This document shows, in pieces, positions 1,434 through 22,158 of a stretch of 64,000 nucleotides of DNA. Below the pieces are notes generated by a model that was not told where the DNA came from, did not search any database, and worked only from the letters and a program-made list of their open reading frames with translations. Both the position numbers and the translations under genes were made by a program. How positions within the stretch are numbered: the first letter of the stretch is position 1; each line of letters starts with the position of its first letter. Source of the DNA: Promicromonospora iranensis (GTDB lineage Bacteria; Actinomycetota; Actinomycetes; Actinomycetales; Cellulomonadaceae); the NCBI RefSeq assembly GCF_028994805.1, contig NZ_JAJQQP010000011.1, forward strand, positions 1 through 64,000. The letters run 5' to 3'.

Positions 1434-2459
1434 TCAGCAGCGCTCGGCGCGCAGCGACCGGATCTCGTCGTACGACCGCTCGGCGTTGCCGAACGAGTCG
1501 ACCGGGAAGCCCGGCGCCGCCACCGAGGCGGCGTTGTCCTGCTCCCAGATGCCGTGCCGGCGTCCCGAGCCCGCGAGCGCCGACAGGAACTCGGTGTACG
1601 GCAGGTCGCCGGCCCCGAACTCCACGATGTCGTAGCCGCCCGTGTTCGCCGGGTTCGCGTCGCCGTCCTTGAGGTGCAGGAGGGGGTACCGGTGCGGGTT
1701 GCGCTTGACATAGTCCACCGGCTCGAAGCCCGGGTACCGGTGCTTGCCCACGAACGCCCAGTACACGTCCATCTCGAGGTACACCTTCGCGGGGTCGGTG
1801 TTCTCGTAGAAGACGTCGTAGAGGCGCACGTCCGGGTTGTCCGTGGCGAAGCTGAACTCGCCGTCGTGGTTGTGCTGGTAGAACTTCAGGCCTCGGGCGG
1901 ACGCCGCCTCCCCGAAGCCGTTGAACTGCTCGGCGGCGGCGAGGTAGCCGGCGACCGTGCGGTTGTTCGTGGGTGCCTGCGCGGTGCCCACGTGCTCCGT
2001 GCCGAGGATCTCGGCGATGTCGAGCTCGCGCTCCATGTTGTTCGCGAAGTCGCCGATCCCGCGGTGCGAGCCGACGGCCCGCAGGCCGTTGTCGTCCAGC
2101 AGCTGCCGGATCTCCTCGGGGGTGATCGGGCCGACCTGCCCCTGCGTGTACCCGGCGAACTCGATCTCCGCGTACCCCATGTCGGCGAGCCGCTCGAACA
2201 CGGTACGGAACCCGAGCGAGGAGACCTTGTCCCGGATCGAGTAGAGCTGGATGCCGATGTGGCCGGCGGGCACGAGCACCCGGCCCCGGCTCGCGGTCGC
2301 CGCTCCGGTCGCCGCTCCGGTCGCCGCTGGGGGGGCGAGGGTCGAGGCGGCCGCGCTGCCGGCGAGACCGGCACCGGCCAGCGTGGCCGCACCGACGGCT
2401 ACGGTGCCGCCGGCCAGCCTCAGGAAGTTCCTGCGGTTGACGTCAGTGCGTGATTCCAT
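1434..2459 (-). CDS. Tat-exported sugar phosphate isomerase/epimerase (xylose isomerase-like TIM barrel)
   Basis: 341 residues. It begins with a twin-arginine signal (NRRNFLRLAGG, RR at residues 9-10, then an Ala/Gly-rich hydrophobic stretch), so it is probably exported folded. The barrel starts near residue 70 (GIQLYSIRDK). Putative metal ligands are in HNHDGEF, YLEMDVYWA and LLHLKDGD. Family members isomerise or epimerise sugars, or cleave 3-keto-glycosides; the substrate cannot be read from sequence. Start: ATG at 2459 preceded by GGAGAG. The TGA of the upstream GSDH-PKD gene overlaps this ATG by one base, so the two are translationally coupled and probably act on the same substrate outside the membrane. 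Confidence 0.85.
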   Translation of the reverse strand: MESRTDVNRRNFLRLAGGTVAVGAATLAGAGLAGSAAASTLAPPAATGAATGAATASRGRVLVPAGHIGIQLYSIRDKVSSLGFRTVFERLADMGYAEIEFAGYTQGQVGPITPEEIRQLLDDNGLRAVGSHRGIGDFANNMERELDIAEILGTEHVGTAQAPTNNRTVAGYLAAAEQFNGFGEAASARGLKFYQHNHDGEFSFATDNPDVRLYDVFYENTDPAKVYLEMDVYWAFVGKHRYPGFEPVDYVKRNPHRYPLLHLKDGDANPANTGGYDIVEFGAGDLPYTEFLSALAGSGRRHGIWEQDNAASVAAPGFPVDSFGNAERSYDEIRSLRAERC

Positions 2460-5129
2460 CACTGCTCTCCTTCGGTCTGAGCGGCCCCGGTCGGGCCGGT
2501 CGAGCTCTGTGCTGCCGCCGGGGGCGTCCCCACGCCCGCGCCGACCATCGTCACCGCGTCGACGTCGAGCGTGCCGGTCGTGGTGAGGTACAGCGTCCCG
2601 GTGCCCTCGGGGGCGTCGAACGCCAGGTCGACGTCCTGCCACGCCGTGCCGGTCACCTTCGCCGTCGCGAACGGCTTGGCCGTGGGTGAGCCCCAGCGGA
2701 GCTCGACCTTGCCCTTGCCCCGCACCTTCGCGGTGGCGCTGTCGATGCCCGACAGGCTGACGCGTTCCAGGGCCAGCGAGTCGCGCTTGGCCAGACCCGC
2801 CACGTAGGCGCCGGCCGAGGCCGCCTCGTCCTCGACCACCTCGGCACCCTGGACGGCTCCATGCTCGGCCTCCTGCAGCTTCGGGTTCAGGCGCAGCGTG
2901 GCCTCACCCTTGGCGGGCGGCAGACCGTTGGCCCCGTTGTCGGTGTAGGTGACGACGACGGCGCCGTACAGGTGCGCGCCGGGGCCGTGCTCCGGGGAGT
3001 TCGGGTCGGTCGGGAAGACACCCGTGCAGCCCGTGCCGGACACCTCGGGGTGGGCGTGCTCGTCGTGGCCGAGCCCGTAGGACCACGCGACCCGGCTGCA
3101 GACCGTCTCGCCACCGTCCTCGGCGTCCTGCGTGCTGACCTGGAACGGCACCGCGTCGCCCCACTCGAAGAACCCGCCGTCGGCCGGGAAGTCGACCGTG
3201 ACCTCGGGTGCCTGGTTGCCGACGCTGATCTCCCGCGAGGTGAGGGAGAACTTGGCGCGCGCGTCGGTGACCCGGAGGCGGGCCGTGTACACGTCGAGCT
3301 CCGTGTAGGTGTGGGTGGCCCGGACACCGCTGGCGTCGAACGAACCGTCACCGTCGAAGTCCCACTCGTACGTGAGCGCGTCACCGTCGGGGTCGGTCGA
3401 GGCGGACGCGTCGAACGTGACCTCCACGGGCGCGGAGGACGACGACGAGGGCGTGGTCGTGAACCGCGCCTGGGGCGCCTTGTTGCCCTCCGCGTAGTCG
3501 ATCCGGTACAGCCCGGAGTCCGGGTTCTGGCGGAAGAAGCCGTCGCCGTACTCCAGGACGTACAGCGAGCCGTCCGGGCCGAACTCGAGGTCGATCGGGT
3601 TGTCGTTGCGGGGCATGCCCGCCGCCTCGACCGCGGCGTTCGGGAAGAAGTCCTCGATCTCGCCGACCTCGAACGTGGCCCAGTCCACGCTGAACGCCGC
3701 GTAGTAGTCCTGGGAGAACTCGCCGAAGAACGCCTTGCCGTCCCAGTGCTCCGGGAACTTGCCGGGCGCCGTGCTCTCGGGGTCGTAGTGGTAGACCGGA
3801 CCGCCCATGGGGCCCTGCCCGCTGCCCGAGCCGAAGTTCACGAGCTCGTCACGCGGCTGCTGCCCGGGCTGGTCGCCGTAGTGCAGGGTCGCCGCCCGCG
3901 ACGGCGGGAGGTCGGTGAGGCCCGTGTTCCAGCGGGAGTTGTTCTGCGGCGCGTCGCAGTCGAAGAACTCGCGGGGGGGTGGCGGTCGCGAAGTCCCACT
4001 CGTTGTAGGCCGCGTTCGGGCCGTGGCAGTACGGCCAGCCGGAGTTGTGCGGGTCGTCGAGGCCCACGGCGTTCCACTCCACGTAGCCCATCGGCCCGCG
4101 GTCGGGGTTCGCGGCACCGGCGTCGGGCCCGTAGTCACCCCAGGTCAGCGAGCTCGTCTCGGGGTCCACCTCGATGCGGAACGGGTTGCGCACGCCCATC
4201 ACGAAGATCTCGGGACGCGTGCCCTCCGTGCCCGGCGCGAACAGGTTCCCCTCGGGGATGTCGTAGGTGCTGCCCTCGCCCGGCGGTGCGCCGGCCGGGA
4301 TCTCGTCCTTCACGTCGATCCGCAGGATCTTGCCCCGCAGGTCGTTCGTGTTGCCCGCCCCGCGACGGGCGTCGAAGCCCGGGTTCATGTTCGGTGCGTC
4401 GTTGTTCGGGGCGTAGCCGCTGGCACCCGGGGTACCGGCCGGGGTGTTGTCCCCGGTCGACAGGTAGAGATTGCCCTCGGCGTCGAAGTCGATGTCGGCG
4501 CCGACGTGGCAGCACTGGCCGCGCTGCACCTCGACGTCGAGGATCGGCTGCTCCGAGGCCGGGTCGAGGGCGTCACCCGTCCAGGTGAACTTCGACAGGC
4601 GGTTCACGCCCACCCAGCGGTCCCAGTAGCTCTCGTCCTCGCCCGCGGGCAGCGAGTTGGGTGCGTTGCCCGACGGTGTGTCCGCCGTGCCGTCCCCATC
4701 GGCGTCCCGCGGCGCGTACACGAGGTAGACCTCGTTGCTCTCCGCGAAGTCCGGCGCCAGGGCGATGCCCTGCAGCCCGTCCTCCGAGTTCGCGTACACG
4801 TCGAGGGTGCCCACCAGCGTGGTGACGCCCGTCGCCGGGTCGGTCACGCGGATCTCGCCGTTGCGGGCCGTGTGGAGCACCCGCTTGTCGGGCAGCACGG
4901 CCATGTCGATGGGCTCACCGACGTCCTTGGTGAGCAGGACCTTCTCGTAGCTGCCCCAGTCCGTGTCGGCCGTGGCGGCAGCCTCGGCGTCCTGGGTCTC
5001 GGTGTCGTGGCCCTCGTGGGCGGACGCCGCCGGCGTGGCCAGGAGAGCCACGCCGACCAGCGAGGTCGCGGCGAGCGCCGCGAGAGTCTTCTTCCGCCGC
5101 GCACGGGCGGGCGCCTGGATAGTCTTCAT
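2459..5129 (-). pseudogene. Secreted GSDH-type sugar dehydrogenase with PKD and C-terminal carbohydrate-binding-like domain; one-base frameshift
   Basis: It would encode about 889 residues if one base were removed from the C7 run (minus strand) at 3973-3979. As written, the frame breaks after DFATATPP and resumes as REFFDCDAPQNN. The full product has a signal peptide (residues 1-37, ending ATPAASA), a glucose/sorbosone-dehydrogenase beta-propeller (~55-500, with QCCHVG near 203-208 where family members carry the catalytic His), a PKD domain (~555-650, TYEWDFDGDG) and a C-terminal beta-sandwich (~755-870). The close relative at 7132-12744 aligns without the break (DFATGQSGAAFDC). Start: ATG at 5129 with GAGGAG upstream. 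Its stop overlaps the start of the Tat isomerase. A sequencing error, a recent mutation, or +1 slippage on the C-run are all possible, so it may still be functional. Confidence 0.8.
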
Positions 5130-5309
5130 ACGTGATGCAGCTCCTCATCGAGTTCGTCACGCCGGCCGGGCCTCGTCCGCATCCCATTCGTCCGGGGCCC
5201 GGTCTTCCTGTCGCACCGGCGCCGCGCTGCGCCGCCGGTGGTCCCTCTCCCTACCTGGTCGTACCTCCCTGCTCAGTGCGTGTACGGCGGGCGTCGGCCT
5301 GTCAGGGCC

Positions 5310-6311
5310 TCAGCGGGTCGAGAACGCGGCGTCGAACGCTGCGTCGGGGGCGTCGTACGCGTGCGAGCGCACGAACTGGAGCGCCTCGGGCGCACCGACG
5401 AGGCGGTCCATGCCTGCGTCCTCCCACTCCACGGAGATCGGGCCGTCGTAGCCGATCGTGTTGAGCATCCGGAAGGCGTCCTCCCACGGGACGTCCCCGT
5501 GCCCGGTGGAGACGAAGTCCCAGCCGCGGCGGGGGTCCGCCCACGGCAGGTGCGAGCCCATGCGGCCGTTGCGACCGTTCGTCATGCGCTTCTTCGTGTC
5601 CTTGCAGTCCACGTGGTAGATCCGGTCCTTGAAGTCCCAGAGGAAGCTGACCGGGTCCAGGTCCTGCCACACCATGTGGCTGGGGTCCCAGTTCAGGCCG
5701 AACGCCTCGCGGTGGCCGATCGCCTCGAGGGTCCGGACGGTGGTCCAGTAGTCGTAGGCGATCTCGCTCGGGTGCACCTCGTGAGCGAACTTGACGCCCA
5801 CCTCGTCGAACACGTCGAGGATCGGGTTCCAGCGGTCGGCGAAGTCCTGGTAGCCGGCCTCGATGGCGGCGTCCGACACCGGCGGGAACATCGCCACGTA
5901 CTTCCAGATCGCCGAGCCGGTGAACCCGATGACCGTCTTGACACCGAGCTTCGCGGCGAGCCGGGCGGTGTTCTTCATCTCCTCGGCGGCGCGCTGCCGC
6001 ACGCCCTCGGGGTCGCCGTCACCCCAGACGCGGTCGGAGACGATGTCCCGGTGCCGCTGGTCGATCGGGTCGTCACAGACTGCCTGGCCCTTGAGATGGT
6101 TGGAGATCGCCCACACCTTCAGGCCGTGCCGCTCCAGCAGCTCCAGGCGCCCGGCGACGTACTCGTCGTCGTCCCAGCGCCACGGGTCCAGGTGGTCGCC
6201 CCAGCAGGCCAGCTCGAGGCCGTCGTAACCCCACGACGCGGCGAGCCGCGCCACCTCCTCGAGCGGTAGATCGGCCCACTGGCCGGTGAACAGGGTGATC
6301 GGTCGTGTCAT
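5310..6311 (-). CDS. Sugar phosphate isomerase/epimerase (xylose isomerase-like TIM barrel), cytoplasmic
   Basis: 333 residues, no signal peptide. The barrel begins [19 protein letters not shown]. Putative metal-binding positions appear in [33 protein letters not shown] and the final [10 protein letters not shown]. Such enzymes (IolE/IolH-like and 3-keto-glycoside lyase-like) work in sugar and cyclitol breakdown. Start ATG at 6311 has a strong AGGAGG ten bases upstream. Together with the Gfo/Idh dehydrogenase at 12861 it would supply the intracellular half of the locus; that assignment is inference. Confidence 0.85.
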
Positions 6312-6333
6312 CTTTTTCTTTCCTCCTGTGCGT

Positions 6334-6354
6334 GACGATCCGGCGTCGCCGGTC
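6334..6354 (-). terminator. Weak hairpin, possible attenuator
   Basis: CCGGCG and CGCCGG arms around a single T, extended by ACGA/TCGT with a bulge. It lies between the stop of the exported protein (6373) and the ribosome-binding site of the isomerase (6311). Short and without a T-run, so readthrough is likely. Confidence 0.3.
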
Positions 6355-6372
6355 GTGCCCTTCGGTCTTCGG

Positions 6373-7020
6373 TCACGTTTTCCCGCGGCGCAGGCGGACG
6401 ACGGCCGCCGCCCCTCCGGCGACGACGAGCGCCCCCAGCACCCAGCCGGTCCAGGCCGGCACGCCGCCGGACGACGGCGCCCCGTCGCCGGCCGCCGCGG
6501 CCGCGCCGGCGGCGTCCGCGTCCGGGTTGGTCCCTGCGGCTCCTGGACCCGACGGCGCGGGCCCGGACTCTGCCGGCGCGGAGTGTGCGGTGTCGGACTG
6601 TGCGGGGTCGGACGCCTCGTCCTCGGACGGCGGGGCGGCCGGTGCGGCGACGTCGACCTGTACCTCTACCTTCGCCTTCTTCGGTTCCGTCGCCCGCGCG
6701 GTCACCGTCCAGTGCCCTTCGCCGAGCAGCTCGGGGTCGGAGCGGTACCAGCCGACCCCTTCGGAGGCGGAGACGAGCGTGACGGGGCCGACCTCGTCAC
6801 CGGCGTCCGAGACCGCCTGCACGACGACGACGGCCGACTCCTCGACGGGATGCCCGTCCCCTGCCCAGGTCAGTGCGGCGGAGACACCGCCGGCGCCATC
6901 GGTGCCGAGCTCGATGTCGATCTTGCCACCGTGTGCGGCGGCCGGAGCCGTGGCGGCGGGCACGACGGCGAGACCGAGCGCCAGCAGGAGCGCCGCGCCG
7001 AGGGGGGTGAACCGTTTCAT
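6373..7020 (-). CDS. Exported membrane-anchored protein of unknown function
   Basis: 215 residues. An N-terminal signal peptide ([20 protein letters not shown], cleavage near AAAHG) is followed by an Ig/FixH-like beta domain of about 100 residues that includes [12 protein letters not shown]. Then come a Pro/Ala/Ser/Asp-rich linker (~120-175) and a C-terminal transmembrane helix ([16 protein letters not shown]) ending in basic residues, so it is anchored facing outwards. There is no sortase LPXTG. Start ATG at 7020 has GAGAGGAAC upstream. It lies between the ThuA-GSDH gene and the cytoplasmic isomerase. The beta domain resembles YtkA/FixH-like sandwiches, but I would not assign a function. Confidence 0.7.
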
Positions 7021-7044
7021 GCTCGTTCCTCTCCGACTCACGAG

Positions 7045-7083
7045 GGCCCGGAGGTCAGCAGCGCTGCCCGCTGACCTCGGGCC
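7045..7083 (-). terminator. Hairpin between exported-protein gene and ThuA fusion
   Basis: Arms GGCCCGGAGGTCAGC (7045-7059) and GCTGACCTCGGGCC (7070-7083), one bulge, 10-base loop. Second of two hairpins after the ThuA fusion; it leaves only ~25 bases before the next start codon. Confidence 0.5.
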
Positions 7084-7093
7084 ATGGTGCGAC

Positions 7094-7124
7094 GGGGCGT
7101 GCACCGGTGATCGGTGCACGCCCC
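7094..7124 (-). terminator. Terminator hairpin after the ThuA-GSDH gene
   Basis: Perfect 13-bp stem GGGGCGTGCACCG (7094-7106) / CGGTGCACGCCCC (7112-7124) with a 5-base loop, seven bases beyond the stop codon at 7132. Confidence 0.65.
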
Positions 7125-7131
7125 CGGGCTG

Positions 7132-10100
7132 TCAGTCGCACCTCTCTTCGACGGTCACGATGAGGCGTGCCTTGCCGGACGGGCTGAGCTCCCAGTCCCC
7201 GGCCGCCGTCAGCTCCGCACCGCGGTTCGGCGTGGCGATCACCCGGTAGTCACCCGGGGCGAGGTCGCCCAGGTCACGAGCCTTGCCGTCCGCCTCGCCG
7301 TCGACCCAGCGGTGCACGACGTAGCTGCGCACCCCCGGCAGCTCGACCGGATCGATCGAGCCACCGGCGTCGCACGTCGCGGCCACGACCACGACGTCCG
7401 GCGTGTTCGGGTCGGGGCACTCCGGCTCCTCGAGCGTCACGAAGAGCACGGCGAGCCCGTTGTCCCGGACCTTCCAGTCGCCCTCGCCGACGAGGGCGTA
7501 CCCCTCGGCCGGGCGGGCCGCGATCCGGTACGTCCCCGGAGCCACGTGGTCCAGGTCGTCCAGGACGTCACCGGCCGAGCCGTCGACCCATTCGCGCACC
7601 ACGTACGAGCGCACGCCGGCCACCTCGGCCGGGACGAGTGCGCCCGCGGTGACGACCTCGGCCCCGGAGGGCCCGTACGAGCACGTGGGCTGCACGACGT
7701 CGACCGCAGGTGTCGCCTCGGTGAGCTGTGGCTCGGCGATGGTGAACTCGACGGTGTCGCCGACCACGGTCTCGCCGTCCGCCGAGGCCCGCACCTGGAC
7801 GGTGTGGGCGCCGGCCGCCGAGATCTCCAGCGGTGCCGTGTACTCGGCCCAGCCCCCGTCGTCGACGTTGACCTCTCGGTACACCTGCGCGCCGTCCGGC
7901 CCGCCGGTCGTCTCCACCGTGACGGTCACCGGTCCGAGCCACTGGCCGTCCGGGCCGTCCGGCTCAGCCGGCGACACCGTGCCCGTCACCTCGAGCGGCT
8001 CGGTGGCGTCCGTCGTCCGGAAGTACTCGAACGTGGCCGTGGCCGCCGACTGCTGGGAAGCCCCGAGGGCGTACAGGCCCACCCGGGCGTCCTGCAGCCC
8101 GTCGTGGGTCACCGGATCGGCGAGGGCCGTCCAGTCCTCGCCGTCAGCGCTGTACTCACCGGTGAAGGTGGTCCCTTGCTTCGACAGCCGCAGGTGCCAC
8201 ACGCCCGACGTGAGGTCGTTCGCGCCCGGCTGCGGGTCCTGGACCACGGCGTCGACCTCGCTGCGGAGCTCGATGCGCTGCGCGACCGGGTCTCCGGCCA
8301 CGTTGTCCGTCACGAGGTCGAGCTTGACGTAGTTGTCGTCGTCCCCGTACCCGATGAGACCGCCCTGCTGGTACTGCTGGTCGAAGTCCGACCCGTCCAC
8401 CCGGGTCTCGACCGTCCAGTCGTCCTCCGGCAGGTCCTGCACGACGATATTCGGCGTGCCGGAGTTGCTGCCCGTGTAGATGTCCGTGGCGGTCGTGTCG
8501 ATCTCCAGCGCGCCACCGGTCACCCGGTAGCCCGTCGGATCCTCCCGCACCACGTCCCAGCGGCAGCCGTCGAGGGTGTCCCCGTCGAACTCGTCCGCGG
8601 GCCCGGGGGTCCCGGCCGTGTCGTCCGGGGTGATGTGGAACCAGTCGAACTGCGCGTCCACCACGTCAGCCGCCGATCCGGCACCCGCGAGCGCGAAGAG
8701 CCCGATCCGCGGATCGACGATGCCGTCGAGCGACTTGGTCTGGGGCATGGCCGTGAACTCCACGCCGTCCGCGGAGTACGACGCCGTCAGGTCCTCGCCG
8801 TCGCTGCTCGCCAGCCGCACGTACACCGTGTCGGGGTACGCCTCGCCGAGCGCCGCGGTGTTGGAGTCCCCGACCTCGTTCGGTGTGCCGCCCTCCTCAC
8901 GGATGTACTGGAAGACGCGGGTGGCCGGGTCGGCGGGTGCCGAACGCCCCTGGATCACCATCTTCGCGTAGTTGTCCGCGTCGCCGTAGATCAGCAGCCC
9001 CGCCTGCTGGTACTGCGCGTGGGCCGGGATCGTGACCTTGGCCGTCGCGGTGAACGGACCGTCCGGCAGGTCCTGCAGGACGAGGTTCGGGACTGCCGTG
9101 TTGTCCGTCCCGTAGATGTCCGAGGTGCTCGCCGGAACCGTGAGGGTCCCGTCGGCCACCTGCAGGTCCTGGTTGCGGTCGAGCACCGTCCAGCGCTCCG
9201 GGTCGAGCTCGTCCCCGAGGAAGTCGTCCGACCGGCCCGCCAGGCAGGGCGTCGGCTCCGGAAGGGTCCCGGTGACCTCGACCATGACGTACTCGACGGC
9301 ATAGGCGCCGCCCTCGTCGGTGACGCGTACCTGGAGCCGGTAGGTGCCCGGCTCCTCGTAGGTGTGCTCGAAGGCGGAGGTGCCGTCGACGAACCCGTCA
9401 CCGAGCCCGGCGTCCCAGGCATAGGTCAGGTCGCCGGTCCCGTCGGGGTCGGTGGCCTCGGCGGTGGCGGTCACGGTCAGCGGGGCGTCGCCCGAGACCG
9501 GGTCGACCGTGAGCTCGACGTCCGGCCTCTCGTTGTCGGTGACCCCTCGGCCGTCGATCTCCATCCAGTTGGCGTTGATCCCGCCGGAGAGCAGGACGAA
9601 GTGCAGTGATCCCGAGCCGGACGGCACGTCGGTCAGCTCGGTACGGGCGTCGACGTACTGCTGCCAGTCACCTGTGCTCGGCACCGTGATCCGGCCGATC
9701 TCGGGACCGTCGGGCGCGTCCCAGCGCACCGAGACCTCCCCGCCGGCGGCGCCGGAGGCCGCGCGCAGCGAGATGGCGTCGACGCCGGCCAGGCCCACCG
9801 GTTCGTGGGCCCAGTAGTCACCGGGCTCGATGTACCCGATGTTCTGGCCGCCACCCGCGGTGTCGCCCGTCTGCTCGATCTGGACGCCCGGGTCGCCGGT
9901 GCCGTCGCCGATACCGTCGACTCGTCCCGTGCCGGTGAAGAACTCCGACTGGACCAGCTTGGGCTGCAGCACCTGCAGGTCGGTGGCCGTCAGCGGTGCG
10001 CCGGCGGCACCGCCGTCGTCCGTGTAGAACGCCTCGATCACCCAGAAGATGTTCGCCTCGATGCCGTGGCCCTCGTCGCGGGCCGTCTGGATGACGCCCT

Positions 10101-12853: not shown

Positions 12854-12860
12854 CCGGAAC

Positions 12861-14114: not shown

Positions 14115-15170
14115 TCAGGAGTCGAAGCCGATGGGCAGGTACTCCTCGACGTTGTCCGCCGTGACGACCGGTGCGAAGAGCTGGACGGTGCGGGGCACGC
14201 CGATCGAGGCGAGGTCGCCGATGGTCTTGTTCTGCGCGATCAGGCGGGCGAGCTTGACGCCGTCGGCGGCCTGGGTGGACGGGTAGACGACCGTCGCCTG
14301 AACCACGCTGTCGCCGGACTGGATCTCTTCCATCATGTTGCTCGACCCTGCGCCGCCCACGAGGAAGAACTCGTCGCGGCCGGCGTTCTCGATGGCCGCG
14401 AGGACGCCGACACCCTGGTCGTCGTCGTGGTTCCAGATGGCGTCGATCTCGGGCTCGGCGGACAGCAGGTTCGCCGTCTGCTCCTCGCCACCCTCGACCG
14501 TGAAGTCGGCGGCGACGCGGGCGTCGACGTCGAGACCGCAGTCGTCGAGCGCGTCCTTGAAGCCGGTGCTGCGGTCGGTCGTCAGCGGCAGGGAGTCGAT
14601 CCCGGCGATCTCGGCGACCACCGCGTCCGGGTTGTCACCCAGCTGCTCGCAGATGTAGGTGCCGGCGCTCACGCCCATGCCGTAGTTGTCACCCAGCACC
14701 GTGGTGCGTGCGGCGAACGGGCTGGTGAACTCACGGTCCACGTTGACGACCGGGATCCCTGCCTCCATGGCCTCGAGCGCCACCTCGGTGAGCGCTGCAC
14801 CGTCGAACGGCAGCAGCACGATCGCGTCCACACCGTCGGTGATGAAGCCCTCGATCTGGCTGATCTGCACGTTCACGTCGTTGGTGCCCTCGGCGACGCG
14901 GAGCTCGACGTCCTCGTACTTCTCGGCCTCTGCCTCGGCGGCCGAGGTGATGGCACCCATCCAGCCGTGGTCGGCGGCCGGCGCGGAGAACCCGATGACC
15001 ACCTCGTCGCCGGGCTCGTCGTTGTCGGTCGTCGTGACGGGGCCGGTAGCGGCCGTCTCCTCGTCGCGGGGCTCGTTGCTGACGCAGCCGGTGACGACGA
15101 GCGCTGCGCAGGCCGCTGCGATGAAGGCGCCGGAAACCCTGCGCGTACGTACTGCTGTTGAAGAAGTCAT
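14115..15170 (-). CDS. Sugar ABC transporter substrate-binding lipoprotein (RbsB-like)
   Basis: 351 residues. Signal peptide with lipobox VVTGC (Cys29), then a disordered acidic linker and a periplasmic-binding-protein fold of the ribose/galactose class (VVIGFSAPAADHGWMGA, DAIVLLPFDGAAL, IPVVNVDREF). It would be lipid-anchored on the cell surface and deliver a sugar to the permease. Start ATG at 15170 with GGGAGA upstream. It lies third in the operon, after the permease. Confidence 0.92.
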   Translation of the reverse strand: MTSSTAVRTRRVSGAFIAAACAALVVTGCVSNEPRDEETAATGPVTTTDNDEPGDEVVIGFSAPAADHGWMGAITSAAEAEAEKYEDVELRVAEGTNDVNVQISQIEGFITDGVDAIVLLPFDGAALTEVALEAMEAGIPVVNVDREFTSPFAARTTVLGDNYGMGVSAGTYICEQLGDNPDAVVAEIAGIDSLPLTTDRSTGFKDALDDCGLDVDARVAADFTVEGGEEQTANLLSAEPEIDAIWNHDDDQGVGVLAAIENAGRDEFFLVGGAGSSNMMEEIQSGDSVVQATVVYPSTQAADGVKLARLIAQNKTIGDLASIGVPRTVQLFAPVVTADNVEEYLPIGFDS

Positions 15171-15253
15171 CGTGATCTCCCTTGATCCGGGGTCGTGCTC
15201 TGGGGTTGGCTGAAACAGGTACTGGGTAGGACTGAGGCCGCTGGAGCGGCGGC

Positions 15254-16231
15254 TCAGGTGCTCGTCGCCTTCTCGCGTGCGGCGAACCACTGCTGCAGGA
15301 GCACCGCGCCCACGATGATCGCGCCCTTGGCGATCGCCTGGACCGAGCTGTCGATGTTGTTCAGGATGAAGACGTTGGTGAGCGTCGAGAAGATCAGGAC
15401 GCCCAGCACGGTGCCGGTGATGGTGCCGCGGCCGCCGGCCAGCAGCGTGCCACCCACGACGACCGCCGCGATGACATCGAGCTCCAGGAGCGTCCCGTTC
15501 GTCGAGGAGCCCGCTGTGGTGCGAGCCAGCGCCATCACGGCGCCGATGCCCGCCGTCAGGCCGGTGAGCCCGTACAGGTAGAGCGTGTGCCGCTTGATCT
15601 TGATGCCCGCGAGCCGAGCGGCCTCCGGGTTGCCGCCCACCGCGACGGTTCGGCGGCCGAAGGTGGTCCGGTTCATCAGGAACCACCCGGCGACCGCGAC
15701 CACGATGAAGATCCACACGATCACCGGCAGGCCGAGCAGGTCGGCGCGGAAGGTATCGAGGAACGGATCCACCTCGACGAGCTGCGTACGCCGTCCGGCG
15801 ATGAGTTCGGCGAGGCCCCTGGCCGCTGCCAGCATCGCCAGGGTGGCCATGAAGGCCGGCACCTTGCCGTACGCGACAAGTGCGCCGTTCACCAGGCCTG
15901 CGGCCAGACCGACGGCCAGCGCGGTGACCACCATGACCCACCAGCCGTAGTCCTCCGCCAGGTACTGGGTGGACAGCGTGGACGCCCAGACGGTGGACAG
16001 GCCGAGCACCGAGCCGACCGACAGGTCGATGCCACCACCGGTGATGACGAACGTCATGCCGATGCTCACCACGCCCGTCGTGGCCGCGAGAGCGAGCAGC
16101 GTGGTGATGTTGCCGACCGAGGCGAACCGACCACCCGTGGTGACGATCCCCACCACGCACAGCAGGAGCAGGGCGAGCACGAGGCCACCCATTCGCAGAG
16201 CCGGCCCTGACAGGGCCGATCGTCCTCTCAC
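15254..16231 (-). CDS. Sugar ABC transporter permease (RbsC-like)
   Basis: 325 residues and about nine hydrophobic segments typical of the ribose/xylose permease family (GMTFVITGGGIDLSVGSVLG and RTTFGRRTVAVGGNPEAARL are characteristic). It forms the membrane channel with the dual-domain ATPase encoded just upstream. The GTG start at 16231 overlaps the ATPase stop by four bases (GTGA), so it is translationally coupled. Confidence 0.93.
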   Translation of the reverse strand: MRGRSALSGPALRMGGLVLALLLLCVVGIVTTGGRFASVGNITTLLALAATTGVVSIGMTFVITGGGIDLSVGSVLGLSTVWASTLSTQYLAEDYGWWVMVVTALAVGLAAGLVNGALVAYGKVPAFMATLAMLAAARGLAELIAGRRTQLVEVDPFLDTFRADLLGLPVIVWIFIVVAVAGWFLMNRTTFGRRTVAVGGNPEAARLAGIKIKRHTLYLYGLTGLTAGIGAVMALARTTAGSSTNGTLLELDVIAAVVVGGTLLAGGRGTITGTVLGVLIFSTLTNVFILNNIDSSVQAIAKGAIIVGAVLLQQWFAAREKATST

Positions 16232-17766
16232 GGGACACTTCCTTCCATGACCATATCGAGCACGGCGTGCTCGTCGATGTCGTCGGCGGGGCTGTCGTGG
16301 ACCGCCCTGCCGTCGGAGATGACCAGGACCCGGTCTGCCAGGCCCAGCACTTCGGGGATCTCGCTGGACACGACGATGACGGCGGCGCCGTCATCGGCCA
16401 GCCGGCGGATCAAGTTGTAGATCTCGGAGCGAGCGCCCACGTCGACGCCCCGGGTGGGCTCGTCGAGCAGCAGGACGCGGCAGCCGTGCACCAGCCAGCG
16501 GGCGAGCAGCGCCTTCTGCTGGTTGCCGCCGGACAGCGTGCGCGCGTCGCGGTCCACGGAGGCCGGCCGCAGGTCGAGCGCCTCGACCTGCTCCTGCGCC
16601 GCCGCGCGCTCGGCCTTCTCGTCGAGCCAGCCGCTGTGGGCGAGGCGCGCGAAGGTGGACAGGGTGATGTTCCGGTACACGGGCTCGTCCAGGAGCAGGC
16701 CCTGGCTCTTGCGCTCCTCCGGGCACAGGCCCATGCCCGCGGCGACCGCCGCGTCGACCCCGCCACGCAGGCGCTTGCCGCCCAGGCGCACGGTGCCCGA
16801 TGTCGCGCGGCGGGCCCCGTAGATGGTCTCGAGGATCTCGGAGCGGCCGGAGCCGACGAGGCCCGCCAGACCGACGATCTCGCCGGCCCGGACGGTGAGC
16901 GAGACATCCTTGAAGACGTCGCCGAGCCCGAGGTCGGTGACCTCGAGGACCGGCGCTGCGGCCTCCGGCACGCCGGGGCGCTTCGGGAACGAGTACTCGA
17001 CCGCGCGACCCGTCATGAGCTTGATCAGGTCGTCCGTCGGCGTGTCCGCGACGGACAGGCTCGTCGCGACCGTGCGGCCGTCCTTGATCACCGTGATGCG
17101 GTGACCGAGCTGCCGGATCTCCTCGAGCCGGTGCGAGATGTAGATGACGGCGACGCCGTCGGCGGTGAGCTCGCGCACGATCCGGTGAAGGTTCTCGACC
17201 TCCTCGGAGTCCAGCACGGCGGACGGCTCGTCCATGACGACCACGCGCGCGTCCCGGGACAGCGCGCGGGCCAGCGAGACGATCTGCTTGCCGGCCGCCG
17301 GCAGGCTGCCCACCTCGCGGTGCGGCGAGATCTCCGGGTGCCCGAGCCGCTTCAGGATCTCCCGGGTGTTCCGGGCCGCGTCGGACCGGCGGGTGACACC
17401 GCCCCGGGCGAGCTCGTGCCCGAGGTAGATGTTCTCGGCGACCGTGAGCCCGTCGACGACGTCCAGCTCCTGGTAGATCGTCGCGATGCCGAGGCCGAGG
17501 GCTGCCACCGGATCCGGGATGGTCACCGGTTCGCCGTCGAGCAGCACCTCGCCCGCGGTGGGCTGGTGCGCTCCGGCCAATACCTTGATCAGGGTGGACT
17601 TGCCCGCCCCGTTCTGACCCAGCAGGCAGTGCACCTCGCCCGGGCGGACCTCGAGGTCCACACCGTCGAGCGCCCGCGCGCCGGGGAACTCCTTCACGAT
17701 GCCACGCATCTGCAGCAGGGGCTGCTGCGCCTGTTGCTCTGCCCCAGGGGGGTCCACGTCGACCAT
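16228..17766 (-). CDS. Sugar ABC transporter ATP-binding protein, two ATPase domains (RbsA-like)
   Basis: 512 residues with two ABC domains. The first (~20-240) has Walker A GQNGAGKST and Walker B VVVMDEPSAVLD, with a degenerate signature (LPAAGKQ). The second (~265-510) has an altered Walker A (GLVGSGRSE, normal for this family's second domain), signature LSGGNQQKALLARW and Walker B LLLDEPTRGVD. It powers import with the permease and lipoprotein downstream. The ATG at 17766 lies only six bases after a good -10 box and has no Shine-Dalgarno, so its mRNA is probably leaderless. It is the first gene of the operon and has the ROK-type palindrome over its -35 box. Confidence 0.93.
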   Translation of the reverse strand: MVDVDPPGAEQQAQQPLLQMRGIVKEFPGARALDGVDLEVRPGEVHCLLGQNGAGKSTLIKVLAGAHQPTAGEVLLDGEPVTIPDPVAALGLGIATIYQELDVVDGLTVAENIYLGHELARGGVTRRSDAARNTREILKRLGHPEISPHREVGSLPAAGKQIVSLARALSRDARVVVMDEPSAVLDSEEVENLHRIVRELTADGVAVIYISHRLEEIRQLGHRITVIKDGRTVATSLSVADTPTDDLIKLMTGRAVEYSFPKRPGVPEAAAPVLEVTDLGLGDVFKDVSLTVRAGEIVGLAGLVGSGRSEILETIYGARRATSGTVRLGGKRLRGGVDAAVAAGMGLCPEERKSQGLLLDEPVYRNITLSTFARLAHSGWLDEKAERAAAQEQVEALDLRPASVDRDARTLSGGNQQKALLARWLVHGCRVLLLDEPTRGVDVGARSEIYNLIRRLADDGAAVIVVSSEIPEVLGLADRVLVISDGRAVHDSPADDIDEHAVLDMVMEGSVP

Positions 17767-17772
17767 GGAATG

Positions 17773-17801
17773 AACGTAGAGGGACTTTTGGCGACGGTCA
17801 A
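17773..17801 (-). promoter_or_regulatory. Promoter of the sugar ABC operon
   Basis: Minus-strand -35 TTGACC (17796-17801), a 17-base spacer and -10 TACGTT (17773-17778), six bases before the ATG at 17766. The spacing implies a transcript that starts at or very near the start codon. Confidence 0.75.
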
Positions 17802-17810
17802 GCAAAAGTC
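17783..17810. promoter_or_regulatory. Probable ROK operator (28-bp palindrome)
   Basis: Arms GACTTTTG (17783-17790) and CAAAAGTC (17803-17810) are perfectly inverted, with a 12-base centre that contains the -35 box of the ABC operon. The same layout recurs at 22205-22232 (22 of 28 bases identical). The adjacent divergent gene is a ROK regulator, so repression of the operon and autoregulation are the natural reading. Confidence 0.75.
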
Positions 17811-17841
17811 GCAACTTCGTTGACCATGATTGACTAGAGGC

Positions 17842-19023
17842 ATGGTGGAAGTGGCACGGGAAGTGTTTCAGCAGGCGCCCAAGGTCTCCGGAGCGGGGGA
17901 CATGTTCCAGCTCTTGCGCGACGGTCGGCCCCGCACGCGGGCCGACCTCGCAGCCGTCACGGGGCAGGCCCGGTCGACCGTCGCGGCGCGCATCGACCTG
18001 CTCATGACGGCCGGGCTCATCGCTCCGGCCGGCGAGGCTTCCTCGACCGGGGGCCGTCCGCCGGCGACGTTCGCGTTCGCGCCGTCCGCCCGGGTGGTGC
18101 TGGGGGTCGACCTCGGTGCGACGCACGCGCGGTTCGCCGTGACCGACCTCGCGTCCACCATCCTGGCGCAGCGTGAGCTGCCGCTGCTGATCACCGACGG
18201 CCCCGACGCGGTGCTCGACCAGGTCGCGCAGACGGGCGCCGAGCTGCTGAGCGAGGCCGGCCGGTCTGCCAGCGAGCTCGCCGGGGTCGGCGTCGGCCTG
18301 CCGGGGCCGGTGGAGCACGCGACCGGCAAGCCGAACAACCCGCCGATCATGCCGGGCTGGGACGACGCCGACGTGCCCGCGATCCTCGGCGCCCGGTTCC
18401 ACGCGCCGGTGCTCGTGGACAACGACGTGAACATCATGGCGCTCGGCGAGCACCGGGCCGCCTGGCCCGACGTCGCGGACCTCCTGTTCGTCAAGGTCGC
18501 CACGGGTATCGGCGCCGGCATCATCGCCGACGGCGCGCTCCGGCGCGGCGCCCAGGGCTCGGCGGGCGACATCGGGCACGTCGCGGTGCCGGGCGTCACG
18601 GACGTCGTCTGCCGGTGCGGCAACATCGGCTGCCTCGAGGCGATCGCGAGCGGGCTGGCCGTCGCGAACGCGCTGGAGGGCGCAGAGAAGCCCGCCGACG
18701 TCGTCGCCATGGTGCGGGCCGGCGACGTCCCCGCGAGCCAGGCCGTCCGCCAGGCCGGCCGCGACATCGGCGCCGTGCTCGCCACGAGCGTCAGCCTGCT
18801 CAACCCGTCGATGATCGTGATCGGCGGCATCCTGGCCGACGCCGGCGAGCACATCGTCGCCGGCATCCGCGAGGTGGTCTACCAGCGGTCCCTGCCCCTG
18901 GCGACGCAGCACCTGCGCATCGTCACCGCCCGGACCGGCACCCAGGCCGGTGTCCTCGGCGCGAGCGCCATGGCGGTCGACCAGGCGCTCTCGTCGGAGG
19001 CCGTCGACCGTCTGGTCGCCTGA
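17842..19023 (+). CDS. ROK family transcriptional regulator
   Basis: 393 residues. The N-terminal winged helix (~15-75: RTRADLAAVTGQARSTVAAR) is followed by a ROK sugar-kinase-like fold. Visible are the phosphate loop GVDLGATHAR (~84-93), DNDVNIMALGE (~192-202) and the zinc motif CRCGNIGCLE (~256-265). The ROK sugar contact ExGH is GDIGH here, with Asp for Glu. It probably binds an imported sugar and releases the palindromes at 17783 and 22205. The start is uncertain among TTG 17830, ATG 17842 and GTG 17851; AGAGG lies just before 17842. It is divergent from the ABC operon and convergent with the DUF1080 gene. Confidence 0.9.
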   Translation: MVEVAREVFQQAPKVSGAGDMFQLLRDGRPRTRADLAAVTGQARSTVAARIDLLMTAGLIAPAGEASSTGGRPPATFAFAPSARVVLGVDLGATHARFAVTDLASTILAQRELPLLITDGPDAVLDQVAQTGAELLSEAGRSASELAGVGVGLPGPVEHATGKPNNPPIMPGWDDADVPAILGARFHAPVLVDNDVNIMALGEHRAAWPDVADLLFVKVATGIGAGIIADGALRRGAQGSAGDIGHVAVPGVTDVVCRCGNIGCLEAIASGLAVANALEGAEKPADVVAMVRAGDVPASQAVRQAGRDIGAVLATSVSLLNPSMIVIGGILADAGEHIVAGIREVVYQRSLPLATQHLRIVTARTGTQAGVLGASAMAVDQALSSEAVDRLVA

Positions 19024-19050
19024 CCCTGCCGAGGTAGAACCAGGGCGAGA

Positions 19051-19105
19051 CAGAACTCTGGCGAGACAGCGCCCGGTCGCCGGGCTCTGTCTCGCCAGAG
19101 TTCTG
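19051..19105. terminator. Bidirectional hairpin, family-A relative
   Basis: Outer arms of 19 bp (CAGAACTCTGGCGAGACAG and its complement, 19051-19069 / 19087-19105) enclose an inner stem GCCCGG-TCG-CCGGGC. It lies between the convergent ROK gene and DUF1080 gene. The repeated unit GGCGAGACAG, preceded by GCCGAGGTAG at 19029, resembles the GGCGAGGTAGTC unit of the hairpins at 29705, 40601 and 61513. Confidence 0.8.
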
Positions 19106-19119
19106 CTTCGGCAGCTCGG

Positions 19120-22100
19120 TCAGCCGGCGTCGCCCAGGTCCTTGACCCGGATGTCGCGGTAGCTCACCGCCTCGCCCTGACCGTGGTTCTGCAGGCCGAT
19201 GAACCCCTGGCTGAGGTCGCGCGCGGGGTCGGTGCTGACGAAGTCGTTCACCAGCTCACCGTTGAGCAGGACCTTGATGGTCTGCCCCTCCACCCGGATC
19301 TCGTAGGAGTTCCACGAGCCCACCGGCTTGAGCGCCCGCTCCACGGCCTCCGGGTCGGCGCCCTGGAACGTGTAGATCGCGCCCGTGGTGCGGTCCGACT
19401 CGTCGGTGGCGTCGATCTGGATCTCGTAGCCCTGGTTGACGGCGACCCACGGGTCGTTGCCCGGGTCCGGGAAGCCGACGAAGACACCGCCGTTGTCGTC
19501 CTTCTTGAGCTTCCAGTCGAGCTTCAGGCTGTACTCGTTCAGCTCCGTGGAGTGCCAGAGCAGACCCATGCCGCCGCTGCCGCGGATGGTGCAGTCGCTC
19601 TGTCGGCCGAACGAGCCCGGACCAGCCATGTTCCAGCCGTCCAGCGAGGCCATCGTGCCGTCGAACAGCGCGGTGTAGCCCCGCTCGTACCGCTTCGCCT
19701 CGCAGATGTCGTCACCGCCGCCGACCTTGAGGAAGTCGAGGTTGACGTTGCCGTCGTCGTCCTCGTCGTAGCGCAGGGTGATGGTGTTGTCGCCCTTGCG
19801 CAGGTCCAGCGACCGGGTCGCGGTCGCCCAGGTCTTCCAGGTGCCGGTGGACTCCAGCGCCCACGGCTCGACCTCCTCGCCGTTGACGAGCACCGACAGC
19901 GTCTTGGTGCCCTCGAACGGGTTGGGTCCGTTGGCGTACCGCAGGTGCACCGGGACGCTGCCCGCGCGGCGCGCGGTGGTCGTGAAGGTCGCCGAGGCAC
20001 CTTCCTGGTTGAACCCGGCAGCGAACCCGGAGCCGGAGTAGCCGTTGTGCTCGTTGGCCACGTTGGCGCTGCCGCGGAGCGTCGCCTCCTCCGCCTCCTG
20101 GAATCCTGTCGGTGCCTTGTAGCCGGGGATCGCGTTGAGCGTGTACCAAGCCTCGGTGTTCCACAGCTCGCGGCCCTCGACGTCCGCGAACGGACGCGGG
20201 CTGCGCAGGTGCACCACGTACCCGGGCTGGCGCCCGTCCACCGTGAGCGTCACCTTCGTGCGGTCCTTGGAGACCTTGGCGCGCGACACGAACAGCTGCT
20301 GCTCGTCGACCTTCGGCCCGCCGTAGGCGCGCGTGGGCACGTAGCGCCAGTGGTCCATCCGGAACGCGGCGTTCGGGTCCTCGGCGATCTTCGCCACCGT
20401 CTCGTCCGAGAGCGGCTGCGTGTACTCGACCTCGAAGCCCTTCTTGGTGGCCCGCATCTCGGTCATGTCGAAAGCGTCCTCGCCGTTCGGCGTGAGCTTC
20501 TGCAGGCCGTAGCGCAGCTTGCCCGGCTCGCTCCAGTTGCCGCCCTCGCCGATGCCGCCGACGTACAGGGCGCCGTCGGGCCCGACCACCGTGCGGTTGA
20601 CGCCGGCCTCCAGGCCTGCCGTGTGCCGGAACACCGCACCCTGGTACTCACCCTCGACCTTCTCGAGGAAGCCGCGCTGCAGACCACCGTAGGTGACGTC
20701 ACCGAACACGAGCTGGCCCGCGTACGGACCTTCCTCGAGCTGCACCGGACCGCTCGGCGAGTTGCCGATCTCGTTCTGGGGCACCCACAGGGCGGGCGGC
20801 GAGACGGACTGGTCGTCGAACGGTCCCGCCGGGTTGGTGAAGTGGTTGAAGAACTTGCCCTCCTCGACGTGCACCAGCTTCGAGCTGGGCAGCCAAGCGC
20901 CCTGGTTGTCCATCACGAACAGCTCGCCGTCGGGGCCCTTGACCATGCCGTTGGGCGTGCGGAGACCGCCGGCCACGTACTCGAGCTCACCGGTCTCGCG
21001 GTCGATCTTGATGGTCGTGCCGCGGTTCTCGGCCGGCTGCGGGTCCGTGGTGGCGCCGCCGTTGTTGATGGCGACCGACAGGCTCACGTAGAAGTTCTCG
21101 TCGTCGTGCAGCAGGCCGAACGCGAACTCGTGGAAGTTCTCGCCGAACGGCCACTCGGCCACCGTGCGGTGCTCGTCGTAGAAGCCGTCACCGTCGGGGT
21201 CCGTGAGCTCTGTGAGCTTGTCACGCTCGGAGACGTAGATCGAGTCCTCGATCACGGCGATGCCCATGGGGTTGAACAGGTCGGTGGCGACCTTCTCGTA
21301 GGTCACCTCGTCCTTCGAGGTCTCGCCCGTCACGTTGTCGAGCAGGAACACCTCGCCCGGCTCGGGGTTCTCGACCCAGCCGCCGGGGCTCACCGAGCCG
21401 GACGTGACCACGGCGAGGCGGTCGTCGTCGGTCCAGTCGAGCCCGGCGACCATGGGCTCGAAGCCCTCCGGGCGCAGGTCGGTCAGCGAGTAGCCCGGGT
21501 ACACGGAGTCGAGGCGCATGCCGTCGCCCGCCGTCTCGTCCGACCCCTCGCAGTACTTGGTGCCCGGTGCCGTCACGCGCACGACGCCGGCCTCGGTGCT
21601 CAGCACGCTCTCGGGGACGACGACGTAGTCCGTCGTGCCCGGCGGACGCCACTCGAGCTTGAGGATGTTGTCGTTGGTGTTGTCGAAGTACTCCACCCGC
21701 AGGTCGTGGAACCCCGCCTCGAGAGCGACGGTGCCCTCCTTCGACTCCGCGCCGTGCAGGCCGTCGTTGTCGATCACCTCGGCGTCGTCGATCACCAGCC
21801 GCGAGCCGTCGTCGCTCGTGAGCCGGAACTCGTAGTTCCCGGTGGACGGCACCGACAGGTTGGCGAGCGCGTGCGCGATGAAGCGCTCGCCCATGCCGAA
21901 GTCGGCCTCCGTGGCGTAGTCGATGGTCGGCTTCAGCTGGTCGACGTTCGGCGTCTGGCCGGAGCGGAGCGTGCACAGCTCGCTCAGGTCGCGCGCCATG
22001 TCATACGTCCTCAGGGTGACGCCGGGCTCCTGCGGCGGCAGGTCGTCTGCCGCCGACGCGGCGGGGACGGTCCCTGCCAGCATCACTGCTGTCAGCGCAA

Positions 22101-22158
22101 CGGCAGTCGCGCCTGCGGCAGCCTGTCTCGCGCGGATTCTGGTTCCACGTTGTTTCAT
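19120..22158 (-). CDS. Secreted PA14-propeller-CBM-DUF1080 multidomain protein
   Basis: 1012 residues. Signal peptide (~1-36, ending VPAASA), PA14 domain (~45-195, YEFRLTSDDGSRLVIDD and HDLRVEYFDN), a GSDH/DUF7133-like beta-propeller (~205-560), a CBM6/35-like module (~670-800, FQEAEEATLRGSANVANEHN) and a C-terminal DUF1080 / 3-keto-disaccharide hydrolase domain (~815-1012, GYTALFDGTMASLDGWNMAG and GVFVGFPDPG). DUF1080 enzymes cleave 3-oxidised glycosides, so the fusion could oxidise and split a glycoside outside the cell; that is inference. Start ATG at 22158 with GAGGAG upstream. Its promoter carries the palindrome also seen at the ABC operon, so both respond to the ROK regulator. Confidence 0.88.
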   Translation of the reverse strand: MKQRGTRIRARQAAAGATAVALTAVMLAGTVPAASAADDLPPQEPGVTLRTYDMARDLSELCTLRSGQTPNVDQLKPTIDYATEADFGMGERFIAHALANLSVPSTGNYEFRLTSDDGSRLVIDDAEVIDNDGLHGAESKEGTVALEAGFHDLRVEYFDNTNDNILKLEWRPPGTTDYVVVPESVLSTEAGVVRVTAPGTKYCEGSDETAGDGMRLDSVYPGYSLTDLRPEGFEPMVAGLDWTDDDRLAVVTSGSVSPGGWVENPEPGEVFLLDNVTGETSKDEVTYEKVATDLFNPMGIAVIEDSIYVSERDKLTELTDPDGDGFYDEHRTVAEWPFGENFHEFAFGLLHDDENFYVSLSVAINNGGATTDPQPAENRGTTIKIDRETGELEYVAGGLRTPNGMVKGPDGELFVMDNQGAWLPSSKLVHVEEGKFFNHFTNPAGPFDDQSVSPPALWVPQNEIGNSPSGPVQLEEGPYAGQLVFGDVTYGGLQRGFLEKVEGEYQGAVFRHTAGLEAGVNRTVVGPDGALYVGGIGEGGNWSEPGKLRYGLQKLTPNGEDAFDMTEMRATKKGFEVEYTQPLSDETVAKIAEDPNAAFRMDHWRYVPTRAYGGPKVDEQQLFVSRAKVSKDRTKVTLTVDGRQPGYVVHLRSPRPFADVEGRELWNTEAWYTLNAIPGYKAPTGFQEAEEATLRGSANVANEHNGYSGSGFAAGFNQEGASATFTTTARRAGSVPVHLRYANGPNPFEGTKTLSVLVNGEEVEPWALESTGTWKTWATATRSLDLRKGDNTITLRYDEDDDGNVNLDFLKVGGGDDICEAKRYERGYTALFDGTMASLDGWNMAGPGSFGRQSDCTIRGSGGMGLLWHSTELNEYSLKLDWKLKKDDNGGVFVGFPDPGNDPWVAVNQGYEIQIDATDESDRTTGAIYTFQGADPEAVERALKPVGSWNSYEIRVEGQTIKVLLNGELVNDFVSTDPARDLSQGFIGLQNHGQGEAVSYRDIRVKDLGDAG

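Follow-up and report, generated by a model that had tools for sequence, protein, structure and literature searches.

A probable ROK-controlled locus for oxidative glycoside breakdown with secreted ThuA, GSDH and DUF1080 fusion proteins in an actinobacterium

What is the function of a gene group that combines very large secreted proteins carrying ThuA, GSDH and DUF1080 domains with isomerase-like barrels, a sugar importer and a ROK regulator? The question is raised by nt 1434–22158 of the window, which is the whole stretch of 64,000 bases analysed here (bases 1–64000 of contig C3; the Promicromonospora-like genome comprises 5.84 Mb in 31 contigs). An earlier interpretation, made from the letters alone (the sequence-only reading), had listed a ThuA-GSDH fusion, a PA14-propeller-CBM-DUF1080 protein, a Gfo/Idh/MocA dehydrogenase, an ABC sugar importer and a ROK regulator, and all were recovered by Pfam scans. 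The two isomerase-like barrels that it had also listed, one of them exported by the twin-arginine translocation (Tat) pathway, are a pair of AP_endonuc_2 barrels, one of which carries the Tat signal RRNFLRLAGG. The locus is probably the central part of a regulon under ROK control that breaks down glycosides oxidatively and would start doing so outside the cell. Most open reading frames (ORFs) of the locus are supported by codon-position GC content (ORF 14115–16394 was not in the filtered list and was later read as the binding protein), and the encoded proteins are 94–99% identical to those of the named relative Promicromonospora iranensis, the small protein being 71% identical. The features are:

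1434–2459, minus strand: Tat-exported AP_endonuc_2 barrel, candidate extracellular 3-keto-glycoside eliminase (lyase), from structure-sequence matches and motifs
2459–5129, minus strand: secreted GSDH-PKD-CBM6 gene (GSDH2), here two ORFs (3849–5129 and 2459–4138), from Pfam and frame comparison
3973–3979, minus strand: reading-frame change at a C7 run, from the sequence
5310–6311, minus strand: cytosolic AP_endonuc_2 barrel, candidate 2-hydroxy-3-keto-glucal hydratase (2zds, 568 bits; 8ro4, 127 bits)
6373–7020, minus strand: small secreted protein with signal peptide, conserved AHGG and DGHPVE, and a C-terminal membrane segment, from the sequence
7132–12744, minus strand: secreted ThuA-GSDH-PKD-CBM6-PKD-GH43_C2-DUF1349 protein of 1870 amino acids (Pfam: ThuA 7e-81, GSDH 8e-35)
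12861–14039, minus strand: levoglucosan-dehydrogenase-like Gfo/Idh/MocA dehydrogenase, candidate 3-keto-sugar reductase (Pfam; matches to 4h3v and 6a3f)
14115–15170, minus strand: lipoprotein-like sugar-binding protein, Peripla_BP_4 (Pfam)
15254–16231, minus strand: ABC permease, BPD_transp_2 (Pfam)
16228–17766, minus strand: ABC ATPase with two ABC_tran domains (Pfam)
17784–17809, minus strand: putative operator/promoter site ACTTTTGCTTGACCGTCGCCAAAAGT before the ABC unit, from sequence comparison
17830–19023, plus strand: ROK regulator, divergent from the ABC unit (Pfam)
19120–22158, minus strand: secreted PA14-propeller(DUF7133-like)-CBM35-DUF1080 protein, from a Pfam scan of ORF 19120–22245
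22206–22231, minus strand: second putative operator copy ACTTTTGCTTGACTACCGGCAGAAGT before the DUF1080 gene, from sequence comparison

The genes of the locus recur together in other genomes. A search with the fusion protein retrieved 41 loci, 36 of which are actinobacterial ThuA-GSDH loci and were used for counts (the remaining five comprise L041, which has ThuA but no GSDH, and L043–L046, with a weak GSDH match alone). With presence taken as a tblastn match within the retrieved stretch, gene order not being part of the criterion, the Gfo enzyme is found in 35 of the 36 loci, the ROK regulator in 34, the ATPase, the permease and the hydratase in 33 each, and the sugar-binding protein in 32, followed by the small protein (26), DUF1080 (15), the Tat barrel (11) and the PA14 propeller (10); in these counts the fusion is present by construction, several contigs end early, and the GSDH2 figure is a cross-hit. 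Gene order matches that of the window in the loci read, although Kribbella L031 has no close ROK gene and Streptomyces avicenniae L038 lacks the set. Chance clustering was ruled out, since the core genes stand together in 32–35 of the 36 loci; barrel proximity and the operator controls also speak against it. An AP_endonuc_2 gene lies within 10 kb of 12 of 16 contiguous fusions (10 genomes), against 0.69 expected. The domains are also joined in further combinations: triple fusions are ordered ThuA-GSDH-DUF1080 in L032–L034, L042 and on contig C31 of the genome under study, and GSDH-ThuA-DUF1080 in L116, L120 and L121, and on its contig C7 a PA14-propeller-DUF1080 gene, a barrel gene and a GSDH-CBM6-PKD gene adjoin one another.

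The units of the locus share a putative operator as well. Both the ABC unit and the DUF1080 gene are preceded by the palindromic site ACTTTTGCTTGAC-N6-CARAAGT, whose inverted repeat surrounds a -35-like TTGAC and whose pattern did not occur in 100 shuffles of the window. In the whole genome four sites were found with up to three mismatches and none with the reversed control. Two are those of the window, one precedes a ROK/ABC/ThuA-GSDH locus on C14 and one the C31 unit, and each of the four stands at a ThuA/GSDH/DUF1080 locus. In 34 of the 36 related loci an ATPase, Gfo or PA14 gene has a site (up to four mismatches) in the 450 bases upstream of it, and L110, from a genome of another family, carries an exact core site about 100 bases before a Gfo-ABC-ThuA-GSDH unit. 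The whole genomes of nine relatives contained 26 sites with at most one mismatch to the core pattern (control 0); because the pattern and the relatives were chosen for carrying the locus, the 16 sites within known loci are found there partly by construction, and the other 10 are the real test. Seven of these precede GSDH/ThuA/DUF1080 units, two precede ebo clusters and one a multicopper oxidase gene:

L128: GSDH and barrel genes, operator upstream
L130: PA14-DUF1080 gene, operator upstream
L132, L134 and L135: ThuA-GSDH-DUF1080 genes, operator upstream
L133 and L136: ROK/ABC-ThuA-GSDH units, operator upstream
L127 and L131: ebo clusters, operator upstream
L129: multicopper oxidase gene, operator upstream

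Judged by their gene targets, all 30 sites (26 plus 4) therefore stand at genes of what appears to be one system. The ROK domain is identified by Pfam and the site is found before both window units; the pairing of the two is predicted, and the regulator would bind the site and repress the units behind it. The sequence-only reading had proposed that the locus be doubted if its genes did not co-occur or were not co-regulated in relatives; examined at the level of sequence, this doubt was not borne out: the gene set recurs in one locus, with its domains fused and under a common putative operator. As a separate observation, a second Gfo-ATPase-permease-permease operon with its own operator copy follows the hydratase gene in L011, L015, L027, L028, L029, L030, L035, L037 and L040.

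The gene content suggests a route from a glycoside to glucose. The CBM-bearing secreted GSDH propellers fused to ThuA would oxidise the bound glycoside, probably at C3. Structural matches to the ThuA-GSDH model in one listing fall mainly on residues 231–681, and ThuA relatives appear in the Foldseek list alone (4pxy, TMt 0.76). The 3-keto-glycoside could then be hydrolysed by the DUF1080 domain or eliminated by the Tat-exported barrel, as relatives of known activity suggest. In the window DUF1080 (PF06439, 3-keto-disaccharide hydrolase) matches over profile positions 1–187 of 187 (7e-38, 131 bits, cut-off 26.8). The other domains of ORF 19120–22245 are PA14 and CBM35/CBM6, with DUF7133 at 25.9 bits slightly below its cut-off of 27; the structure model of this protein, with a mean pLDDT of 39, was too poor for comparing the propeller with known folds. 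The Tat barrel matches 8tcd, 8tcs and 8tct, which we take to come from work on 3-keto-glycan breakdown, then 3l23 and 3obe, and AtOGE (8bvk, E 2.7e-8). In AtOGE, Mn is bound via H132, D163 and H189, with E233 coordinating weakly, and H134 is required (PMC10628242). In our reading the barrel motifs HNH, EMD, LLHLKD and WEQD, in sequence order, would correspond to the Mn ligands H132, D163, H189 and E233 and to the His base H134.

The 3-keto-sugar or 2-hydroxy-3-keto-glucal would next be taken up by the ABC importer. A two-domain ATPase with BPD_transp_2 and Peripla_BP_4 is the make-up of the monosaccharide (CUT2) importer class, so uptake of a cleaved monosaccharide fits better than uptake of an intact glycoside. 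In the cytosol the second barrel would hydrate the glucal: it aligns over residues 16–328 with 8ro4, named '2-hydroxy-3-keto-glucal hydratase' (E 1e-35), and HE.HP.E, DPSH, KD and EWE are conserved between the two. The Gfo enzyme, which matches 6a3f, presumably levoglucosan dehydrogenase, would reduce 3-keto-glucose to glucose. The roles proposed for the hydratase, the eliminase-like barrel, the DUF1080 hydrolase and the Gfo reductase are supported by relatives. The sequence-only reading had a glycoside oxidised and split partly outside the cell, then imported and finished inside; this scheme is partly supported overall, the relatives of the eliminase, hydratase and C3-reductase fitting it.

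The GSDH propeller deserves closer attention. Pfam finds it in the window proteins, with the GSDH fold and catalytic His kept and the ligands of pyrroloquinoline quinone (PQQ) partial. In the alignment of the GSDH profile to soluble glucose dehydrogenase (sGDH), whose PQQ ligands are K377, R406 and R408, the residues His144, Arg228 and Asn229 are kept, and the window protein also keeps Arg406.

Several observations weigh against the proposed route. In our alignment Met replaces Arg408 of sGDH and Asn replaces Lys377. The incomplete ligand set lowers the case for membership of the PQQ-GSDH group but not the claim that the protein works like one, because Lys377 is absent from 7cdy too. PqqE is below cut-off in 14 of the 15 genomes with the strongest fusion or GSDH matches (defined below), the present one included (G161 is positive, with 492 bits), and the PqqC search had no positive control; a PQQ enzyme with host-supplied PQQ is weakened by the PqqE result. 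The Gfo enzyme scores 374 bits on the NCBIfam levoglucosan dehydrogenase model LevoglcsnDh (NF052479), below the cut-off of 650. Three genes are accessory, since those for GSDH2, for the Tat barrel and for the PA14-DUF1080 protein each occur in only 8 to 11 of the 36 loci, and GSDH2 is in addition interrupted in the present assembly. Two of the 16 contiguous fusions have no barrel within 15 kb, and DUF1080 alone is weakly enriched near barrels (4 of 20 within 10 kb against 0.84 expected), a count that uses 20 of 25 DUF1080 rows, leaving out two under cut-off (G268, G097:C45) and three extra copies in counted frames (one in G097:C3, two in G162:C6), with a barrel list that includes three rows under cut-off. 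The operator was not found at L031, L038, the regions of genus g8 or the C7 unit of the present genome.

The sites before ebo clusters connect the locus with a second gene group, and the two also co-occur. In the phylum sample of 296 genomes, 38 match the fusion query at E 1e-20, and EboE (NF035939) is found in 14 at E 0.001, 13 of them over the model cut-off (G279, with two fragments, is under it). At the threshold fixed beforehand (E 1e-20), EboE is present in 13 of the 38 matching genomes against 1 of the 258 others (p 4e-12; over cut-off 12 of 38, p 4e-11), p values that ignore kinship. Of the 15 genomes whose ThuA-GSDH or GSDH matches are strongest, 13 carry it (12 over cut-off), as does a single one of the remaining 281 (p 9e-20; 12 of 15 over cut-off, p 8e-18), again ignoring kinship and for a group (best match E below 1e-100, GSDH-only in five) that was set after both lists were known. 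Strong matches occur in eight families, seven of which have EboE (six over cut-off); EboE without a strong match occurs in one further family. Five genomes of genus g8 have both EboE and GSDH, and three (G023, G182 and G193) have neither EboE nor a strong GSDH match. G150 is the sole EboE genome of the 14 without a ThuA-GSDH match at 1e-20.

The actinobacterial cluster has seven genes: INO1-like, EboC, a barrel, EboA, EboB, EboE and EboF. Its position varies: it is flanked by the DUF1080 fusion and the hydratase in all five Nocardiopsis loci, by DUF1080 and the Tat barrel in L116 and L122 and by Gfo and GSDH in L138, and it follows the fusion in L120 and L121. EboE and a GSDH match share a region in 8 of the 14 EboE genomes (the match in L141 is 32% identical) and lie apart in G000, G097 and G268; G161, G150 and G279 were outside this comparison. 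The cluster of the genome under study is on contig C23 (L137), with EboE at 432 bits (cut-off 250) adjoined by EboA, B, C and F. About 80 bases before its INO1-like match is a weaker operator-like site with three mismatches; sites within three mismatches were also present in three others (L104, L110 and L139) of the 20 regions scanned. The cluster has no sugar phosphate cyclase (DHQS-like) EboD, the INO1-like gene standing there instead (EboD was not sought elsewhere in the genome). Pfam identifies the INO1-like gene as myo-inositol-1-phosphate synthase in L127 and L131, and the L137 homologue is 53% identical to that of L116. The extra barrel gene between EboC and EboA was seen in L127, L131, L116, L137 and others.

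A multicopper oxidase belongs to the same putative regulon. The C31 unit, L132, L134 and L135 have the same arrangement: first the operator, next a two-domain multicopper oxidase gene, then ThuA-GSDH-DUF1080 (Pfam on three of the four). The C31 enzyme has 351 amino acids and a Tat-like SRRSVL start, and the L129 enzyme is 64% identical to it. Two-domain laccase-like genes under the same operator are:

L067, 9991–11046: two-domain laccase-like gene
L129, 8070–9062: two-domain laccase-like gene

The Tat-type laccase could pass electrons to O2 and would be the electron sink of the extracellular oxidation, and the exported ebo product may serve the secreted oxidases. A survey of propeller motifs with one locus per genome (30 genomes) found the CCH type in 12, 10 of them EboE genomes (G279 included), and the HNGG type in five, none with EboE; of the EboE genomes, L081 and L083 show neither and L082 a third type. 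It is conceivable, though on present evidence doubtful, that the exported product of ebo is a prenylated redox cofactor or mediator which replaces PQQ in the CCH-type propellers and is re-oxidised with O2 by the laccase, so that ebo, laccase and 3-keto-glycoside enzymes would form one extracellular oxidative system under one ROK operator. An isoprenoid-cyclitol has been proposed as the ebo product (PMC5133447), and an EboC homologue farnesylates quinoline acids (PMC9235831). In Nostoc, oxidation of the scytonemin monomer in the periplasm requires ebo, a finding that the authors read as export (PMC6282210), an interpretation that would compete with a cofactor role. If the cofactor idea were true, the orphan ebo cluster would gain a biochemical role and its need in scytonemin-monomer oxidation would be re-explained.

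The same observations can be arranged differently. The propellers, with their partial PQQ ligands, might be binding or scaffold modules, as in hedgehog-interacting protein, in which case the secreted proteins would only bind and cleave, oxidation falling to another enzyme, either the cytosolic Gfo enzyme following uptake or the laccase acting through a mediator; given the catalytic His and other residues kept from sGDH, this appears unlikely. Nor does it seem at all likely that the ebo product itself, perhaps a glycosylated isoprenoid-cyclitol, is the target of the secreted proteins, which would then serve the maturation or turnover of a secreted metabolite and not a food pathway. Such a role would agree with the strong EboE co-occurrence, with the ebo clusters inside the locus in Nocardiopsis, the g8 genomes and G204, and with the periplasmic oxidation that Nostoc ebo feeds (PMC6282210). 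However, the importer, hydratase and reductase indicate catabolism, CBM6 and CBM35 suggest polymer-associated substrates, the present genome has its ebo cluster on another contig, and G031 and G258 carry the fusion without EboE.

An improbable explanation is that the locus serves inositol or another cyclitol. The barrel, Gfo enzyme, sugar-binding protein and importer resemble iol genes, the importer is of CUT2 type, and the actinobacterial ebo cluster includes the INO1-like enzyme. The iolE and iolG models do match, but at 44.6 of 290 bits and 110 of 355 bits, far under their cut-offs, and a plain inositol locus was dropped on this ground. Among proteins of named activity, the barrel comes closest to a 3-keto-glucal hydratase and the Gfo enzyme to levoglucosan dehydrogenase, and we know of no role in inositol use for the secreted CBM, DUF1080 and eliminase-like parts.

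Oxidative glycoside breakdown by a regulon that would start outside the cell can be set beside systems described elsewhere. In the literature searched, breakdown via 3-keto-glycosides is described from Bacteroides, Caulobacter, Agrobacterium, gut C-glycoside and levoglucosan systems. The GlycDH-AtOGE-AtHYD-Gfo operon of Agrobacterium (PMC10628242) likewise combines oxidation, elimination, hydration and reduction with two barrels and a Gfo reductase, and homologues of its hydratase and eliminase occur here; its oxidant, however, is a flavoenzyme, of which there is none among the genes scanned, whereas here PQQ-type propellers are joined to ThuA or DUF1080 and the eliminase-like barrel is an exported protein. 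The levoglucosan operon lgdA-B1-B2-C of Bacillus smithii (PMC7676230, PMC10066097) shares a Gfo/Idh C3 enzyme, two AP_endonuc_2 enzymes and an ABC importer, and ROK regulators are reported among lgdA neighbours; it differs in that large secreted CBM fusions, DUF1080 and ThuA are not mentioned in the parts available, and the Gfo enzyme here is under the levoglucosan dehydrogenase cut-off. In Bacteroides (BT2157/BT2158, PMC9007349) and Caulobacter (LacABC-DUF1080, PMC11300592) a glycoside is oxidised to the 3-keto form outside the cytoplasm and cut by a DUF1080 protein, as proposed in the case of Caulobacter. The oxidants there are BT2158 or LacABC and here probably of GSDH type, and the CBM-fused domains in a Gram-positive organism and the operator link to laccase and ebo are further differences. 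Deletions of BT2157 and BT2158 caused no defect on raffinose-family sugars (PMC11501099). Homologues of EboA, B, C, E and F are shared with the known ebo clusters, that of Nostoc also being needed for an oxidation outside the cytoplasm, but the clusters found here have the INO1-like gene for EboD and the extra barrel gene (PMC6282210, PMC5133447, PMC9235831).

No link of ebo to glycosides is made in the available parts of these three reports, and the broad literature search cannot exclude one. Among the papers listed none combined ThuA with DUF1080, and a search for 3-keto-glycoside with DUF1080 gave none, though PMC9007349 treats DUF1080 under the spelling 3-ketoglycoside. The pathway type is already known, while the secreted GSDH fusions, the regulon and the ebo/laccase link did not turn up in the literature searched and would be new. 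In this actinobacterial version, secreted fusion proteins combine oxidant-like and cleaving domains with carbohydrate-binding modules. The regulon offers an experimental handle on the function of ThuA and CCH-type GSDH and on the product of the widely conserved ebo cluster; given the EboE co-occurrence, the ebo question can be put to the test in soil actinobacteria that grow in culture.

The operator, the laccase, the ebo link and a frameshift in GSDH2 go beyond the sequence-only reading, which had described a single GSDH-PKD protein. Its domains are present, with GSDH in ORF 3849–5129 (Pfam 3e-25) and PKD and CBM6 in ORF 2459–4138, but the two frames are split at the C7 run and an intact protein is ruled out for this assembly. 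As the gene is open and stop-free in all eight congeneric Promicromonospora loci, the break is a sequencing error or recent slippage.

The small secreted protein gave no Pfam match at 0.001 and no NCBIfam match at 0.01. Its AHGG directly follows the signal peptide and is accompanied by a DGHPVE-like stretch, a layout that is presumably CopC-like, and a metal or redox role is possible. It was also seen in L006, L008, L011, L012, L015, L017, L021, L025, L027, L028, L104 and L107. In several Promicromonospora assemblies (the window, from position 1; L007, L009, L010, L020, L021 and L022) the fusion gene ends about 6–7.5 kb from a contig end, which suggests a neighbouring repeat, perhaps an rRNA operon. 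The genome under study has nine GSDH, eight ThuA (two in one frame) and five DUF1080 matches, spread over contigs C1, C2, C3, C5, C7, C12, C14, C26, C27, C29 and C31. His-rich mature N-termini (AHEGH, AHPGH or AHDG) recur in several GSDH/ThuA proteins, among them GSDH2 (near window position 5129) and those of L031, L116 and L128.

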